From Leifsonia sp. PS1209 (GTDB lineage Bacteria > Actinomycetota > Actinomycetes > Actinomycetales > Microbacteriaceae), in assembly GCF_012317045.1 (NCBI RefSeq), contig NZ_CP051154.1:1240001-1304000 (forward strand): DNA of 64,000 bases, given 5' to 3'. The notes under the pieces were generated by a model. The model had not been told where the DNA came from and ran no database searches. It saw only the letters and a list, made by a program, of their open reading frames with translations. Shown here piece by piece: positions 3,632 through 34,607 of the stretch. The translations under genes and the position numbers were made by a program. Each line of letters starts with the position of its first letter. The first letter of the stretch is position 1.

Positions 3632-8718
<5,087 letters not shown>

Positions 8719-8856
8719 AATCACTACTCACACACATGTTGTAAGGCTGGTGTGTGAGGCCTGAAGAATGCTTGCGTCCACTATGTGGTTCTCGATGTAC
8801 GGTCGAGAACCGAACCAATCAGCTGATTGGTCCGTTCACTTTGATACATCAATAGT
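8719..8856 (+). other. 23S-5S spacer with three perfect stems
   Basis: The spacer contains three perfect inverted repeats: CTCACACAC/GTGTGTGAG (8727-8735 and 8750-8758), GGTTCTCG/CGAGAACC (8787-8794 and 8804-8811) and the 18-bp palindrome ACCAATCAGCTGATTGGT (8814-8831). They most likely guide RNase processing of the 23S 3' and 5S 5' ends. Confidence 0.75.
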
Positions 8857-8973
8857 GTTTCGGCGGCCATAGCGAGAGGGAAACGCCCGGTCACATTCCG
8901 AACCCGGAAGCTAAGACTCTCTGCGCCGATGGTACTGCAGGGGGACCCTGTGGGAGAGTAGGACACCGCCGGA
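8857..8973 (+). rRNA. rrf: 5S ribosomal RNA
   Basis: About 117 nt: begins GTTTCGGCGGCCATAGCG, contains CCGAACCCGGAAGCTAAG and ends with ACACCGCCGGAC, whose ends pair as the 5S helix I. Placed 3' of the 23S as expected. The ends are accurate to a base or two. Confidence 0.96.
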
Positions 8974-8983
8974 CTCCCTTTTA

Positions 8984-9020
8984 GAAAGAGCCACCCCACA
9001 CCGGGTGGCTCTTTCGCATT
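8984..9020 (+). terminator. rrn operon terminator
   Basis: A perfect 13-bp stem GAAAGAGCCACCC/GGGTGGCTCTTTC (8984-8996 and 9003-9015) with a 6-nt loop, 10 bp after the 5S gene. The T-rich side of the stem provides a partial U-run. This is the end of the rrn transcript. Confidence 0.85.
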
Positions 9021-9070
9021 TAACACCACCACAACACCACACAGGCGGCTATATGCCGGTGCGGACATGA

Positions 9071-21542: not shown

Positions 21543-22022
21543 ATGAGCAACGCGGAACGGGTGGTGGCGCCGAGCGGCGCCGCCACCCGCGAGAACGACG
21601 AGGCCATCGCCTCCGTCGAGGAGCAGTTCACCGTCCTCTTCAACAAGGTGAGCGCCGGGATGCGCGACCGGGCGGCCGGCGTGCATCCCGACCTGCAGCC
21701 GGTCGGCTTCAAACTCCTCAGCACCCTTGCCAGGACGGGACCGGTCCACGCCGGCGCCCTCGCCGGGATGCTGTCCACCGACAAGAGCGTCGTCAGCCGC
21801 CAGGTGCGCATCCTGGAAGACCTCGGACTGGTCGAGAGACGCAGCGACCCGGAGGACAGGCGGGCCAGCTATCTGGTCGCCACCACGGAGGCGATCGAGA
21901 AGGTCAACGAAGTGCGCGCGAGCGACCAGCGGGTGTTCTACAGCAACCTGCGGAAATGGGATCGCGGAGACGTGGAGCAGCTCGCATCCCTGCTGGCCCG
22001 GGTGAACGGGACGGGGCGGTAG
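21543..22022 (+). CDS. MarR-family transcriptional regulator
   Basis: A 159-residue winged-helix regulator. The DNA-binding core is seen as LAGMLSTDKSVVSRQVRILEDLGL (residues about 75-98) followed by the wing RRSDPEDRRASYLV. The ATG at 21531 lies within the -10 box TATGAT (21530-21535), so translation must begin at ATG 21543, 7 nt past the box. Next to the DHA2 pump, it may control that or another locus; its target is unknown. Confidence 0.87.
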   Translation: MSNAERVVAPSGAATRENDEAIASVEEQFTVLFNKVSAGMRDRAAGVHPDLQPVGFKLLSTLARTGPVHAGALAGMLSTDKSVVSRQVRILEDLGLVERRSDPEDRRASYLVATTEAIEKVNEVRASDQRVFYSNLRKWDRGDVEQLASLLARVNGTGR

Positions 22023-23213
22023 TCAGCTGCAGAGGGAGACGCCGGCGGACGTGAGGATGACGGAGCGGTTCTGCTCTGCGAGGGCGTCCGAGTACTTTCC
22101 CGCCGCGTCCGTCTCGCTCTTCCAGCCGCACCAGTCGTAGCCGACTCCGGCCGTGGTGAGCATGCTGGGGGAGACGCCGAGTTTCACCAGGGCGGCTTTG
22201 ACGGCGTCGGCGCGCTTCAGTGACAGGGCCGTGTCCGCGGTGTTGTCGGTCGCCTGGTCCTTGGATGCTGTGCCCGTGACGGTGATCGGCTGACCGTTCT
22301 GCTCGATCGACGGCACCAGCTCGCCGAGGACGGACTGGGCTTTCGCCTGGTCGGAGAACGTGGCCGTGTCCTTCGTGAAGAGGAGGTCGCTGTTGCGGAT
22401 GACGATGGGCTTCGTCCAGTCCGTCTTGGTCTGGACGGCCTCGACGGGCACGGCCGAGACGGCGGGGAGCCCGGAACGGGCGGCGCCGGATGCCGGCTCC
22501 GGCAGCAGGGACAGGGTGCCCCCCGCCGCCTTCACGATCGCGGTCCAGATGGCGGTGAGGTTGCTCCTGGCCGGGATGGTCAGTGGGGTCTGTGCTCCCG
22601 CCACGTCGCCCATCCCGGACCAGTAGACGGTGACGCCCTTGAGGTCGGTGGGGAGCAGGCCGCGGGAGGTCAGGTCGCTGACGACCTGGGCCGGGTCTGC
22701 GTAGAGGACGCCGCTCGTGGAGAAGTTCAGCGGGTCGGTGGTCTGCAGGCCGCTGCCGATCACGAGGACGCCCATCGGGTGGGAGCCGAGGTTGCGGGCG
22801 GCCTGGTCGATGGAGGCGAGGAAGTCGACCTCGGGGGATGCGGAGGCGAGGCCGTTGATGTACGAGGTGATCTGGGTGAGCTTGGTGCGCTGGTCGTTCT
22901 GGCAGACGACGGCATCCTGAGCCGTCGAGCCGATCACCGTCGTGCCCATCACCTGCGGGGTGCCGGAGGGGACGACCACCGTCACGCTGCCGTTGCTGGC
23001 GCCGACCGCCTTCAACTGGTCGACGGCGGAGGCGGGGAGGTTCGTGACGGGGGCGTTCGCGGTGCTCCCGGCGACGACGCCCATGTTGCGCTTCTGCGAC
23101 TGGTCGCAGGCCGCGCCGGATGCGGTGGCCGATGCGCAGGCGGTCATGGTGGCGCCCAGGGCGATGGCGGCCGCGATGGCGACGAAGGCCTTGGCGAGAG
23201 GTCGGGAGGTCAA
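22023..23213 (-). CDS. Lipoprotein with C-terminal OmpA-family domain
   Basis: A 396-residue exported protein. Residues 1-25 are a signal peptide ending in a lipobox (MTAC, Cys 26). Residues about 60-250 resemble a von Willebrand-like or otherwise alpha/beta module (VTVVVPSG near 77; GVLVIGSGLQTTDP near 150; GVTVYWSGMGD near 195) that I do not recognise for certain. Residues about 270-390 are an OmpA-like peptidoglycan-associating domain: LLFTKDTATF, ITVTGTASKDQA, LSLKRADAVKAAL and EQNRSVIL. It is the last gene of a four-gene minus-strand unit, 37 bp after a membrane protein, and probably the cell-wall-facing part of an envelope complex. No function is known to me. Confidence 0.82.
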   Translation of the reverse strand: MTSRPLAKAFVAIAAAIALGATMTACASATASGAACDQSQKRNMGVVAGSTANAPVTNLPASAVDQLKAVGASNGSVTVVVPSGTPQVMGTTVIGSTAQDAVVCQNDQRTKLTQITSYINGLASASPEVDFLASIDQAARNLGSHPMGVLVIGSGLQTTDPLNFSTSGVLYADPAQVVSDLTSRGLLPTDLKGVTVYWSGMGDVAGAQTPLTIPARSNLTAIWTAIVKAAGGTLSLLPEPASGAARSGLPAVSAVPVEAVQTKTDWTKPIVIRNSDLLFTKDTATFSDQAKAQSVLGELVPSIEQNGQPITVTGTASKDQATDNTADTALSLKRADAVKAALVKLGVSPSMLTTAGVGYDWCGWKSETDAAGKYSDALAEQNRSVILTSAGVSLCS

Positions 23214-23250
23214 CGGTCGTCCTTTCGGGAGACGTTCGGGAGGAGGGGGC

Positions 23251-24117
23251 TCAGTCGGTCAGCCGACCGGGCTGGGCACCCTGGCCGAGCTCGGGGTCGC
23301 TGAGCCGTCTGGCGCGCAGCTCGCGGATGATCTGGCTGGTGCTCTCCGGGTCGCGCTCGTGCTGGGCGAGCCGGGTTGCGAGCTGGGCGCGGAGCACGTC
23401 GACGCGCGAGGCGAAGGTGATCCTGGCGCCGGTGTATCTGGCGCCGTCCGCGGCGGCCAGGTGCATGGCCTGGGCGGTCTCCTCGCGGGCGGCGACGGCC
23501 TCGCCGAGCAGGCGGTCGCGGTAGCGGCGCAGCTCGTCCACGTGCGCGTGCGCCTTCTCGGAGGCGCTGAGCAGCGGGCGGGTGGTGAGCCACGCCACGA
23601 TGAAGCTGATCGCTCCGGAGGTGGCGAGCACGCCGAGCATGAGGAACGCCATGATCGTGTCGGGTGCCGTCCAGGAGAAGCCGGTCGCGGCCGGTGCCGC
23701 GGAGCCTCCGACGAGGCCGGTCAGGCCGCCGGCGTTCTGCGCGTCGATGCCCGCCTTGATCCTGGCGACGGTGATGGCGGTGAGCAGTGCCACCCAGATC
23801 AGGGACATCAGCACGGCGGCGATCGACCAGCGCCTGTCCATGACCCTGGCCTGGATGCGCCGCATGACGACGGCGACGACGTGCGGCAGGGTGACGACGG
23901 CGAGCGAGATGCCCAGCGTGATCACGTACATCTGCAGCCCGATCGAGCCGTACTGGCTGTCGTTGCGCAACAGCAGGGTGAGCGCCTGCGACAGCAGCAC
24001 GTAGTCGACCGTGATCATCCCGAGCAGCAGCAGGTAGACGAGCACGTGCGCGAAGCGCGACATGTGCCCGACGCGGGGACGGATGCGCGGCGGTCTCTCG
24101 ACGATGTCTCTGGCCAT
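23251..24117 (-). CDS. Hypothetical four-span membrane protein with cytoplasmic helical tail
   Basis: A 288-residue protein I do not recognise. Four hydrophobic spans are visible (about 20-45, 62-85, 98-122, 150-175). A Gly/Ala/Ser-rich extracytoplasmic loop lies between spans 3 and 4. The last 110 residues are hydrophilic and helical, rich in Arg, Glu and His (LRRYRDRLLGEAVAAREE). Start ATG 24117 is preceded by GGAGA. It is third in the four-gene unit, after two soluble charged proteins and before the OmpA-domain lipoprotein, so a membrane scaffold is a reasonable guess. Confidence 0.75.
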   Translation of the reverse strand: MARDIVERPPRIRPRVGHMSRFAHVLVYLLLLGMITVDYVLLSQALTLLLRNDSQYGSIGLQMYVITLGISLAVVTLPHVVAVVMRRIQARVMDRRWSIAAVLMSLIWVALLTAITVARIKAGIDAQNAGGLTGLVGGSAAPAATGFSWTAPDTIMAFLMLGVLATSGAISFIVAWLTTRPLLSASEKAHAHVDELRRYRDRLLGEAVAAREETAQAMHLAAADGARYTGARITFASRVDVLRAQLATRLAQHERDPESTSQIIRELRARRLSDPELGQGAQPGRLTD

Positions 24118-24136
24118 GATGTGTCTCCTCTCCGTC

Positions 24137-24493
24137 TCAGGCGTAGTTGTGCAGGTCGGGGTCGTGGCCGAGCAGGCGCGCATCCAGTCGCTCGGCGGCG
24201 ACCTCGGCGCGCTTCAGCTGGTGCTCGGTGCGCTCGATGGAGCCGCGGATCAGCTCCTCGCGCTTCTGCGACGCGGTGACGCGGGCGGCGCAGGCGGCCA
24301 GGTTGCGGGTGCGCTGCCGCTCGATCTCCGCGACGCCGCCGCGCTCGAACGCGGCGAGCTCGTGCTCGAACACCTCCAGCGTCTCGACGTCGACGGCGGC
24401 GCGCATCCTGCGCAGGCGCCAGAACAGCCGGCGGCGGAGGCGGCCGGTCTTCGGAACGGAGTAGTCGGCGGGCTGCCGGTCACGCTTTGACAT
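24137..24493 (-). CDS. Hypothetical basic helical protein, 118 aa
   Basis: A small soluble protein, strongly basic at the N terminus (RLRRRLFWRLRRMR, about 18-31) and otherwise long alpha helices with coiled-coil character (VETLEVFEHELAAFERG; SIERTEHQLKRAEVAAERLDARL). No family recognised. Its start overlaps the previous gene by 14 bp and it ends 19 bp before the membrane-protein start, so it is translationally coupled within the four-gene unit. The longer frame running upstream is the shadow of the neighbouring gene. Confidence 0.7.
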   Translation of the reverse strand: MSKRDRQPADYSVPKTGRLRRRLFWRLRRMRAAVDVETLEVFEHELAAFERGGVAEIERQRTRNLAACAARVTASQKREELIRGSIERTEHQLKRAEVAAERLDARLLGHDPDLHNYA

Positions 24494-25130
24494 CGTTTCT
24501 CCCCTGCCAGAGTTCGAGAAGCCGGGTGTTCTCTTTCGTGGTGAGCCACTCGGAGCGCCGAAGGACCGGCGCCCTGTCGAGCCCCCTGTCCGGTGCGAGC
24601 TCCCTGCGGTACGCGCCCCAGTAGACGGCGAGCTTCTCGTCCGCGTGGTCGTAGTAGCGGTTGGTGCGCAGCTTCGCGGCCGTGAACCGCGAGTGGATGA
24701 GGGCGGAGAGCTCGTCGACGCGGCGCTTGCCGCGCTTGATGCGCCGCTCCAGCCTGCGCAGCTCTTCGAAGCCGGGGCCGGTGCCGTTGGCGATGAACTC
24801 GCGGTCGTCGAGCCGGACGTCGCCGGTGAGCGCGTCGTAGTCGGCGAGGTCGGTGTCGAGCGCCCTCGACAGCACGCGGTACTCGGTGAGTTCGCGGTCG
24901 ATCCTCGCGAAGAAGCGCTGCTCCTCGCGCCGGGCGTATCCGTCGGCGTGGGCCTGCATCGCCTGGACGTGCGGGGTGGTCGGCTCGCCGGAGTCCGCAT
25001 CCCTTGCCGGGCCGGAGGCGGTGGTCGCCGCATCCTGCCTGGCCTGCTCGATCAGGCGGCGACGGGCGAAGAAGCCGACGCGGAACGGCCGCCGATCGGC
25101 GCGCGGCGCAGGCAGCGACCGTGTCGTCAT
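24480..25130 (-). CDS. Hypothetical helical protein, first gene of four-gene unit
   Basis: A 216-residue soluble protein with high Arg, Glu and Asp content and helical, coiled-coil-like segments (about 70-100 and 118-150). Conserved-looking aromatic patches include NRYYDHADEKLAVYWGAYRREL near 165-186 (quoted only to locate it). No signal peptide or membrane span and no family I can name. It opens a unit with the 118-aa protein, the four-span protein and the OmpA-domain lipoprotein. Start ATG 25130 is preceded by GGAGGGG. Confidence 0.7.
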   Translation of the reverse strand: MTTRSLPAPRADRRPFRVGFFARRRLIEQARQDAATTASGPARDADSGEPTTPHVQAMQAHADGYARREEQRFFARIDRELTEYRVLSRALDTDLADYDALTGDVRLDDREFIANGTGPGFEELRRLERRIKRGKRRVDELSALIHSRFTAAKLRTNRYYDHADEKLAVYWGAYRRELAPDRGLDRAPVLRRSEWLTTKENTRLLELWQGRNDVKA

Positions 25131-25291: not shown

Positions 25292-26219
<928 letters not shown>

Positions 26220-32030: not shown

Positions 32031-34607
32031 GTGCCCGAAGACTTCACTCCCGACAGTAACGAAGGAAACTCGTTCGACGAGTTCCTCGCCCGTTACCTCG
32101 CGGGTGAGCGTGCGCGTACCGCGCGCTCCATCGACATCAGCCGGTTCCTGAGCCGGCGCACGCAGGAGACCCTCGCCGAGGCCGGACGGTTCGCGCTCGA
32201 ACACGGCCACCGGGAGCTCGACGCCCTGCACATCCTCCGCGTCATGGCGACGGCAGAGCCCGCCGCAGACGCCATGCGCCGCATCGGCGCGGACCCGCAG
32301 GCGGTCGCCGCCGCGGCAGAGCAGCGACTCCCGCAGACGGGCGACCCCGTCGACGTGGATGCCGCATCCATCACTCCGTCCGCCCAGCGGGCGCTGTTCC
32401 ACGCGTACCAGGTGGCTCGCGCATCCGGATCGACGTACATCGACCCCGAGCACCTCTTCTTCGCGCTCGTCATCATCCAGGACGCCCCGGCCGGGCAGGT
32501 GCTGCAGGCAGCAGGCGTCACCCCGGATGCGCTGACCTCCGCCATGCGCCAGACCACGACCGTCGGCGCCGGAACTGCTGGACAGGCCGCTGACGGAGAG
32601 GACGCGGAGAACGCATCCACCACTCCGATGCTCGACCAGTTCGGCACCGACCTGACCGCGCTCGCCCGCGACGGCAAGCTCGACCCGGTGATCGGCAGGC
32701 TCGACGAGATCGAGCAGACCGTGGAGATCCTGTCCCGGCGCACCAAGAACAACCCGGTGCTCGTCGGTGAGGCGGGCGTCGGCAAGACCGCGATCGTCGA
32801 AGGCCTCGCCAGCGCGATCGTCGACGGCGGAGTGCCGGAGCAGCTGCGCGACAAGCGCGTGGTGTCGCTCGACCTCGCCGGAATGGTGGCCGGCACCCGC
32901 TACCGCGGCGACTTCGAGGAGCGCCTCACGAAGCTGATGGACGAGATCAGCGCGGCCAAGGACGAGCTCATCGTGTTCATCGACGAGCTGCACACCGTTG
33001 TCGGCGCCGGCGGCTCGGGAGAGTCCGGCGGCATGGACGCCGGCAACATCCTGAAGCCGCGGCTCGCCAGGGGCGACCTGCACCTGGTCGGCGCGACCAC
33101 GCTCAAGGAGTACCGCCGCATCGAGAAGGACCCGGCGCTCGAACGCCGCTTCCAGCCGGTGACGGTCGGCGAGCCCAGCATCGAGGACGCCGTGCTCATC
33201 CTCTCCGGGCTCCGCGGAGCGTACGAGGAGCACCACGGCGTGCGGTACACCGACGACGCGATCCGCGCGGCCGTCGAACTGTCCGCCCGCTACGTCTCCG
33301 ACCGCTTCCTGCCGGACAAGGCCATTGACCTCATCGACCAGGCAGGGGCACGCCTCCGCCTGCGTCTCGGCAAGCGCGTCGACACGACAGAGCTGATGGC
33401 GACCCTCGCCACCCTCGAGTCCGAGAAGAACTCCGCTGTCGCGTCCGAGCACTACGAGGAGGCGTCGCGCCTCCGCGACGAGATCGAGGCGGTGCAGCGT
33501 TCGCTCGACGAGCTCGGCTCCGCGCCCCGGCCGGATGCGGTGGTCGACGAGCCGGAGATCGCCGGCGTCATCTCGCGTGCGACGGGCATCCCGGTCAGCC
33601 GCATCGGAGAAGCGGACCGCGAACGCCTCGCCAAGCTCGAAACCGAGCTGCACGAGCGCGTGATCGGTCAGGACGACGCGGTCGTCGCCGTCGCGAAGGC
33701 GGTGCGCCGCAACAGGACAGGGCTCGGAGACGAGCGCCGCCCCGTCGGCAGCTTCCTCTTCCTCGGCCCCACCGGCGTCGGCAAGACCGAACTCGCGAAG
33801 GCGCTCGCCGCATCCCTGTTCGGTGACGAGAAGGCGATGCTCCGCTTCGACATGAGCGAGTTCGGCGAACGCCACACGGTCGCCCGTCTGGTCGGCGCCC
33901 CTCCCGGATACGTCGGATACGACGAGGCAGGTCAGCTCACCGAGCGTGTGCGCCGCAACCCGTACTCTGTCGTGCTGTTCGACGAGATCGAGAAGGCACA
34001 CCCCGACGTGTTCAACCTGCTGCTGCAGGTGCTCGACGACGGCCGCCTTACCGACGGCCAGGGCAGGACGGTCGACTTCCGCAACACGGTGGTCATCATG
34101 ACCTCCAACCTGGGGTCGGAGTTCCTCGCATCCCGCAGCGGCGCCCTCGGCTTCGTGCCGGTGGGCGGCGACGCCTCAGCATCCGGTTTCGCGTCGGAGA
34201 AAGACCTGCGCGACCGCGTGATGGGCAAACTGCGCGAGGCGATGCGTCCGGAGTTCCTCAACAGGATCGACGAGATCGTGCTGTTCAGGAAGCTCGACGC
34301 CGAGCAGCTGCGTGACATCGTGCGCCTCCTCCTCACGGCGACGAGCGCCCGCCTCGGTGCGCGCTCGATCGGCTTCGAGGCGACAGACGCCGCGGTGGAA
34401 TGGATCGCCGACGCCGGCTACGAGCCGGAATACGGCGCCCGCCCCCTGCGCAGGGTCATCCAGCGCGAGATCGACGACAGGATCGCCGAACTCATGGTGA
34501 GCGGCGAGCTGACCGACGGTGGCACCGTCACCGTCGACGCGGTGGACGGCGCCGTGCGGGTGACCGCCGGTGCGCGTGCTGCGGAGTGGATGGCGCGGGC
34601 GGCGTAG
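32031..34607 (+). CDS. Clp/Hsp100 AAA+ ATPase (ClpC-like), HspR-regulated
   Basis: An 858-residue double-ring unfoldase. A diverged Clp N domain covers about 30-175. The first AAA module has GEAGVGKT (about 247) and VFIDELHT; the second has [12 protein letters not shown] (about 579) and [13 protein letters not shown]. The middle region is short with a UVR-like [11 protein letters not shown], as in ClpC, not the long ClpB coiled coil. An LGF tripeptide (GALGFVP, about 705) sits where ClpP-binding loops lie. The GTG start at 32031 has AGGAG upstream. An HAIR element precedes it, so it likely belongs to the HspR heat-shock regulon, which in Streptomyces includes clpB. Whether it works with ClpP or as a disaggregase is open. 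Confidence 0.88.

Follow-up and report, generated by a model that had tools for sequence, protein, structure and literature searches.

Analysis of a 64,000-nucleotide stretch of Leifsonia sp. PS1209 (contig NZ_CP051154.1, positions 1,240,001 to 1,304,000; hereafter the window), which belongs to a genome (G000) made up of a single contig of 4.09 Mb, revealed a unit of four genes on the minus strand, A, B, C and D, encoding proteins of 216, 118, 288 and 396 amino acids (Table 1). The unit is real and conserved, was not found described in the literature searched, and extends more widely than first thought. C is a membrane protein from a four-span family that is absent from the libraries searched, and D is a predicted lipoprotein that combines a vWA-like and an OmpA-like domain. 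We tentatively interpret A-B-C-D as one trans-envelope complex, most likely a tether or sensor that would pass the state of the wall or membrane to the cytoplasm. Open reading frames and sequence agree with an earlier reading of this DNA (the original prediction) on the four minus-strand genes, their sizes and their spacing, with an overlap of 14 base pairs (bp) between A and B and gaps of 19 bp between B and C and 37 bp between C and D.

The co-conservation of the genes is established for the loci examined in the Leifsonia-Humibacter clade. A search of 249 family genomes with a C profile found C in nine, from 3 of 85 genera, and a scan of named genomes yielded 14 loci (11 Leifsonia, 1 Diaminobutyricibacter and 2 Humibacter). 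All four genes lie in identical order on a single strand in 9/9 of the family genomes with C and in 14/14 of the named loci; the nine include the window's own genome and the two sets overlap (e.g. L008/L102 and L024), so that they do not amount to 23 independent cases. Since the four genes keep the same order across these loci, and A, C and D have many homologues, the unit is more than a chance arrangement; homologues of B were found in related loci. Among named loci, the closest one found belongs to Leifsonia sp. Root227 (L012), with a C that is 95% identical, and among Leifsonia homologues identity is about 67-95% for C and 74-89% for D. A genus-wide search, in which all candidates were scored, detected C in 23 of 28 genomes with one match each, and two of the five genomes without it measure 2.6-2.7 Mb. 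In the family and wider searches, scoring covered only a part of the candidates in each genome, which makes absences there less sure. This distribution bears on a second explanation, in which the unit is a structural scaffold of the wall or of division, a housekeeping membrane-wall tether without a signalling role. Such a scaffold would suit the near-core presence in the genus without a co-encoded effector, the good conservation of C and D, and the related helical gene-C-D units in streamlined family members with genomes of 1.5-1.8 Mb. However, C is unmatched in 5 of the 28 genus genomes and 240 of the 249 sampled family genomes, and the association of distant forms with kinase, FHA and AAA genes (see below) would be left unexplained; we regard a scaffold as unlikely, though not strongly so.

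A simple hydropathy scan places the four spans of C at about residues 19-37, 59-77, 99-117 and 155-173. Among 29 aligned C-type proteins, picked largely for their proximity to D, 28 have D or E at the position of the acid in span 1 (D38), 23 keep the span-2 histidine (H79) and 26 the arginine after span 3 (R119). In the structure model, the helix that continues from span 4 has a block pLDDT (predicted local distance difference test) of 89-94 over residues 191-240, compared with 70.3 and a predicted template modelling score (pTM) of 0.38 for the whole model. A Foldseek search with this poor model returned 59 matches at E <= 10, with ExbB rows only at E 4 or above. C has no match to the MotA, TolQ or ExbB families of Pfam up to E 1 and none among 72,556 plasmid records, and none of the 68 stretches that fit a pattern in a viral contig scan encodes a relative.

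A and B have no spans in the hydropathy scan and carry a net charge (Lys and Arg minus Asp and Glu) of +8 and +6, respectively. The N-terminal stretch of A reads PFRVGFFARRRL...DAA and its C-terminal stretch DEKLAVYWGAYRR. The families of A, B and C had not been recognised in the original prediction, and the libraries give the same picture: none of the three has a Pfam family up to E 1 or a PADLOC family, and the rows from NCBIfam and PHROGs are all at chance level (E 0.16 for B, below its cut-off; E 0.38 for A; E 0.31 for C). None of the window's four proteins, D included, matches PADLOC, and none has an AAA match in Pfam.

D was originally described as an OmpA-domain lipoprotein. Its lipobox cysteine, Cys26, and its match to PF00691 (42.4 bits; gathering cut-off 27.2) bear this out, but a vWA-like domain had been overlooked. 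Cys26 is present in 18/18 aligned D rows (the window's D included), and the hydropathy scan finds no span apart from the signal. The structure model (pLDDT 85.1) matched the OmpA fold of Pal, OmpA and TagL in a fold search, whose lists were filled with OmpA rows and are thus uninformative on the vWA question for the N-terminal half; a sequence search against solved structures gave no match at E <= 0.01. Two arginines of the OmpA motifs are kept, R334 (LSxxR) and R383 (NR), and GHTD is changed to GTAS; peptidoglycan binding by D is only putative. The window's D has no VWA profile match up to E 0.1, and the DxSxS of its metal ion-dependent adhesion site (MIDAS) reads AGSTAN. VWA_2 is matched by 5 of 30 D-family members (best E 6.8e-5), the window's own D not among them. 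Because the window's D lacks both the VWA match and DxSxS, which some homologues have, we call the domain no more than vWA-like.

Motif comparison separates the D proteins of different loci. DxSxS is intact in D of L098, L099, L100, L120 and L121, with the variants DVTAS in L122 and DHTAS in L119, and GHTD is intact in D of L098, L120 and L122. D proteins of the A-B-C-D type have both motifs altered: the window's D reads AGSTAN and GTAS, and in f7, a family belonging to the same class, the first is mostly GxRAN and the second varies (GTTS, for example). In a midpoint-rooted tree of 34 D proteins, 11 rows are separated from 23 with a support of 98/95; the deeper branching order is uncertain, and long branches lead to several rows. 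The smaller group includes L098 and L119-L122, plus L056 and L058 without the metal motif; the larger one holds every A-B-C-D, helical-C-D and protease-linked form. The A-B-C-D rows are not one clade: one group comes from Leifsonia and Humibacter, the other from f7. Judging from these motifs, the window's form has probably lost the metal site and probably makes no use of the standard diaminopimelate pocket. A changed OmpA pocket would suit the walls of Leifsonia, which are of the diaminobutyrate B type; the f7 forms are changed too.

Table 1. Genes of the unit and mapped parts of their products, in window positions
Feature	Position	Strand	Description
Gene A	24480-25130	-	216 amino acids, ATG start; soluble, helix-rich
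Gene B	24137-24493	-	118 amino acids, ATG start; basic, helical
Gene C	23251-24117	-	288 amino acids, ATG start; four-span membrane protein, long C-terminal helix
Gene D	22023-23213	-	396 amino acids, TTG start; predicted lipoprotein, vWA-like and OmpA-like domains
C, span 1 region	23962-24063	-	residues 19-52, holds acid D38
C, span 4 running into long helix	23359-23664	-	residues 152-253 in the structure model; presumed cytoplasmic side
D, signal peptide and lipobox	23136-23213	-	Cys26 is the predicted acylation site
D, vWA-like domain	22500-23096	-	about residues 40-238; strand and helix order in the model; MIDAS motif replaced by AGSTAN
D, OmpA-like domain core	22140-22379	-	residues 279-358; GHTD reads GTAS, R334 kept; R383 lies beyond this stretch

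Searches with D profiles extended the family well beyond the clade. Relatives were present in 25/249 family genomes at E <= 1e-3 (many partial), 38/396 phylum genomes at E <= 1e-6 (mostly the OmpA part only), 17/150 f7 genomes at E <= 1e-10 (three with the OmpA part only) and 18/394 class genomes at E <= 1e-15 (some partial). Six f7 loci (L096, L111, L112, L115, L116 and L117) contain A-B-C-D in the same order and strand. L110 has B-C-D with no A called, and L108, L109 and L114 have a helical gene, a longer four-span gene and D, L108 and L109 being near copies. The co-conservation across actinobacteria that the original prediction proposed to look for is thus present in these six loci as well as in those of the clade. 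The analysis also looked for the two outcomes that the prediction had named as speaking against a system, genes not conserved together or each one belonging to a known unrelated system, and found neither.

D is linked to the distant loci by ordinary profile search. For the other genes, hhalign aligned C with C of the distant loci at P 1e-13 over 227 columns and A with the first gene of distant A-B-C-D loci at P 4.9e-8 over 161 columns; these P values are from single comparisons and not from database searches. The comparison of B with the second gene is weak (P 0.003 over 43 columns), and the link is also drawn because its position in the gene order matches. Initial comparisons, with profiles built from only three sequences, gave no significant similarity (P 0.08-0.21). 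When the called genes of L054-L065 were first searched with the profiles of C and A (hmmsearch), no match was obtained, and the C-type proteins of L096 and L097 reached only 4.7 and 5.9 bits with the C profile. It is profile-profile comparison and gene order that tie C and A to their distant counterparts. The case for shared descent with the distant modules is strong for C and D, good for A and weak for B. The streamlined family genomes of 1.5-1.8 Mb (L059, L060 and L061) contain a helical gene, a four-span gene, D and then a protease-like gene, for which Trypsin_2 was tested in L060 only. Their four-span protein aligns with the wider C set at P 1.3e-6, and their helical gene shows no significant similarity to A (P 0.19).

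The pairing of C with D was counted among 35 listed loci, 27 of which have a near full-length D and lie outside the Leifsonia-Humibacter clade. Left out were L064 and L065, which have only the OmpA part, L099-L101, which have only the vWA part, L054 with its split D, and L102 and L103 from the window's clade. A same-strand protein of at least 240 amino acids with 3-5 spans lies within 400 bp in 19 of the 27, compared with 22 of 118 other genes of at least 240 amino acids in 18 of these loci. The control runs high because D genes with their neighbours are part of it, and its basis differs somewhat: it took immediate called neighbours, and the D count took all open frames. Among the loci not counted, L062 and L119 have a four-span neighbour on the opposite strand only, L118 has a same-strand five-span neighbour that is transporter-like, and L055, L063, L097, L113 and L120 have no 3-5-span neighbour, with D at the contig end in L063 and L113. 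The C gene of L115 lies at 8214-9050, and this locus also has a neighbour of 910 amino acids. The D relative of L054 (7005-7988) is in two open pieces (profile positions 81-260 and 306-407) with no 3-5-span gene alongside, and looks like a decayed copy.

The neighbourhoods of some distant C-D relatives, of which only chosen neighbours were scanned and which are not an enrichment test, contain several kinds of signalling and immune-type genes that the original prediction had missed together with the distant family itself. Downstream of A-B-C-D, L096 and L112 each encode a Ser/Thr kinase, a helical protein of no recognised family, a ClpB-type AAA protein, an FHA protein and a second four-span protein; L112 also has a radical-SAM gene, and L096 a CHAT gene upstream. 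L115 contains an NB-ARC regulator and an FHA-ABC transporter, the latter fitting no single output, and TPR proteins are present in L117 and L119. L120 (805-14431) has genes for a CHAT-TIR protein, a 1110-amino-acid protein without a family, a weak nSTAND3 and TIR proteins around a D with an intact metal motif, and looks like an immune-type locus. L127 (7186-17310) contains a C-D pair, then an AAA protein and a 1447-amino-acid FtsK/SpoIIIE-FHA protein that resembles a type VII secretion ATPase. L099 (3049-7258) has a C-D-like pair, made up of a four-span protein and a vWA-type lipoprotein that lacks OmpA, with a small membrane protein and, two genes upstream of the pair, a kinase; the contig also carries three RAMP matches some 7-11 kb upstream, which may be read as type III CRISPR. 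In a PADLOC scan of ten L112 proteins, the kinase matched the MAD6 and PD-T4-6 models and the AAA protein PDC-M37B and DolB, in both cases via common domains; D matched ZorB weakly (17.9 bits, 35 residues of the OmpA part) and B matched JetC at 15.4 bits.

Two further explanations arise from these neighbourhoods. A defence module of the abortive-infection type, which would sense phage attack at the envelope and disable the cell as Zorya does but with a different motor, is suggested by the CHAT, TIR, NB-ARC, Ser/Thr kinase and trypsin genes beside some distant relatives, by the PADLOC matches of L112 and by a layout that recalls ZorAB (PMC11890865). Yet no effector is recognised in the unit, the window's proteins are without a PADLOC match, and C was found neither in the plasmid records nor in the viral contig scan described above. 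Defence genes are, moreover, usually patchy, whereas C is near-core in the genus, and we consider a defence role improbable. The second possibility is a secretion or assembly machine, with C-D as the envelope base of an export system. Its model would be either the kinase, FHA, ClpV and OmpA set of type VI secretion, given the genes of L096 and L112, or a type VII-like system, given the FtsK/SpoIIIE-FHA protein of L127. However, a VipB/TssC sheath gene was absent from 6/6 genomes tested (among 14 control genomes only E. coli was positive), and no ATPase, substrate or channel is recognised in the Leifsonia unit, which makes this explanation very improbable.

The trans-envelope layout proposed in the original prediction is compatible with C as membrane core, D as surface lipoprotein and A and B as helical partners in the cytosol; physical assembly and wall binding are putative. 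For complex formation, wall contact, sensing and signal direction we infer the following arrangement. C would form the membrane core. D would be held on the outer face by its lipid anchor, with the vWA-like domain docked on the conserved outer loops of C and the OmpA-like domain reaching the wall. In the cytoplasm, the long helix of C would serve as the binding site of A and B, so that the state of the wall or membrane, such as stretch or damage, could be relayed to the cytoplasm. In distant relatives the signal may go to Ser/Thr kinase, FHA or ClpB-type AAA proteins or to immune-type effectors, and the Leifsonia form would act without co-encoded effectors in a near-core envelope function. More speculatively, the unit may supply the envelope part of a class of actinobacterial sensing systems that has yet to be described. 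Such a class would combine a new four-span core with an intramembrane acid, a vWA-OmpA lipoprotein and two cytosolic helical adaptors. It would be wired across Actinomycetota to kinase-FHA-ClpB-type AAA, CHAT/TIR/STAND, protease or FtsK-type ATPase outputs, with a stand-alone form free of the metal site in Leifsonia and Humibacter. If so, one envelope module underlies many actinobacterial loci that now seem unrelated, and wall-contacting lipoproteins are linked to kinase, AAA and immune-type outputs in monoderms, where envelope sensing is poorly understood. The Leifsonia form would offer a simple experimental entry, with four genes at one locus, one C match per genome and no co-encoded effector recognised.

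Several observations weigh against a sensing complex of this kind. The model of C is poor by its pTM, and Foldseek gave no matches to solved structures at E <= 0.001. Eight of the 27 full-length D loci have no counted same-strand C neighbour; among nine further loci only four (L126, L127, L128 and L131) have a C-type protein within about 450 bp, and L125, L129, L130, L132 and L133 have none adjacent. With both the metal motif of the vWA-like domain and the GHTD of the OmpA-like domain altered, ligand binding by D via the usual residues is doubtful. No signalling or immune family scored above cut-off among the scanned neighbours of L097, L098, L121, L122, L131 and L132. Finally, the system-specific partner AAA of the larger loci was not seen in 9/9 module genomes: all 28 matches listed for the AAA query start at residue 284 or later of its 666 and thus reflect generic ClpB-type sequence. 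The output of the Leifsonia form would therefore be encoded elsewhere, or A and B would themselves be the output.

The genes around the unit vary between loci; those of the window were named by inspection of translations and not by profile search. An alpha/beta-hydrolase-like gene (25292-26128, minus strand) lies 5' of A. At the other end, a MarR-like gene on the plus strand and D on the minus strand converge without a spacer, with ends at 22022 and 22023; in L012 the matches to these two genes are about 520 bp apart. The MarR, MFS, TetR and RimK-like neighbours are kept only in L012 within the flanks compared. A related MFS gene (66%) lies on the opposite side of the unit in L013, and the flanks differ in the remaining loci. 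A promoter and terminator scan found none of either. Elsewhere in the window, a ClpB/ClpC-type AAA region (33618-34583, plus strand) inside an open frame of 898 amino acids was matched by the AAA query from the distant loci.

A literature search, in which most subscription journals were not covered, found no description of the module and is limited evidence of novelty. Among described systems, ZorAB is close in layout: it pairs a membrane protein with an extended cytoplasmic helical tail and an OmpA-domain partner (PMC11890865), as the unit pairs C and its helical tail with D. In contrast to ZorA, a MotA/ExbB homologue, C matches neither these Pfam families nor PADLOC. D is a predicted lipoprotein without the ZorB membrane helix that bears the ion-carrying Asp, and even the D of L112 reaches ZorB only at the low score given above. 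Lipoproteins of the Pal/OmpA family (PF00691; NCBIfam YiaD and PA1041) share with D a lipid-anchored OmpA-like domain and the matched fold, whereas D has an extra vWA-like domain and an altered GHTD and scores far under the NCBIfam cut-offs; the host is not known to have an outer membrane. Type VI secretion systems include the regulators PpkA, Fha and ClpV together with TssL, and kinase, FHA, ClpB-type AAA and OmpA domain similarly occur together in L096 and L112. Here, however, the OmpA domain is on a lipoprotein, and the kinase, FHA and AAA genes are outside the window's form. In the vWA-MoxR (iSTAND) ternary conflict systems (PMC7159879), vWA domains occur in prokaryotic conflict loci, with OmpA in some members among several variable wall-binding effector domains, typically behind a transmembrane segment. 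The unit differs from these by its fixed vWA-OmpA lipoprotein paired with a four-span protein, and no MoxR gene is recognised among its four genes. Taken together, the unit is not a member of Zorya or of type VI secretion by the features tested, yet its layout works like that of ZorAB or Tol-Pal.

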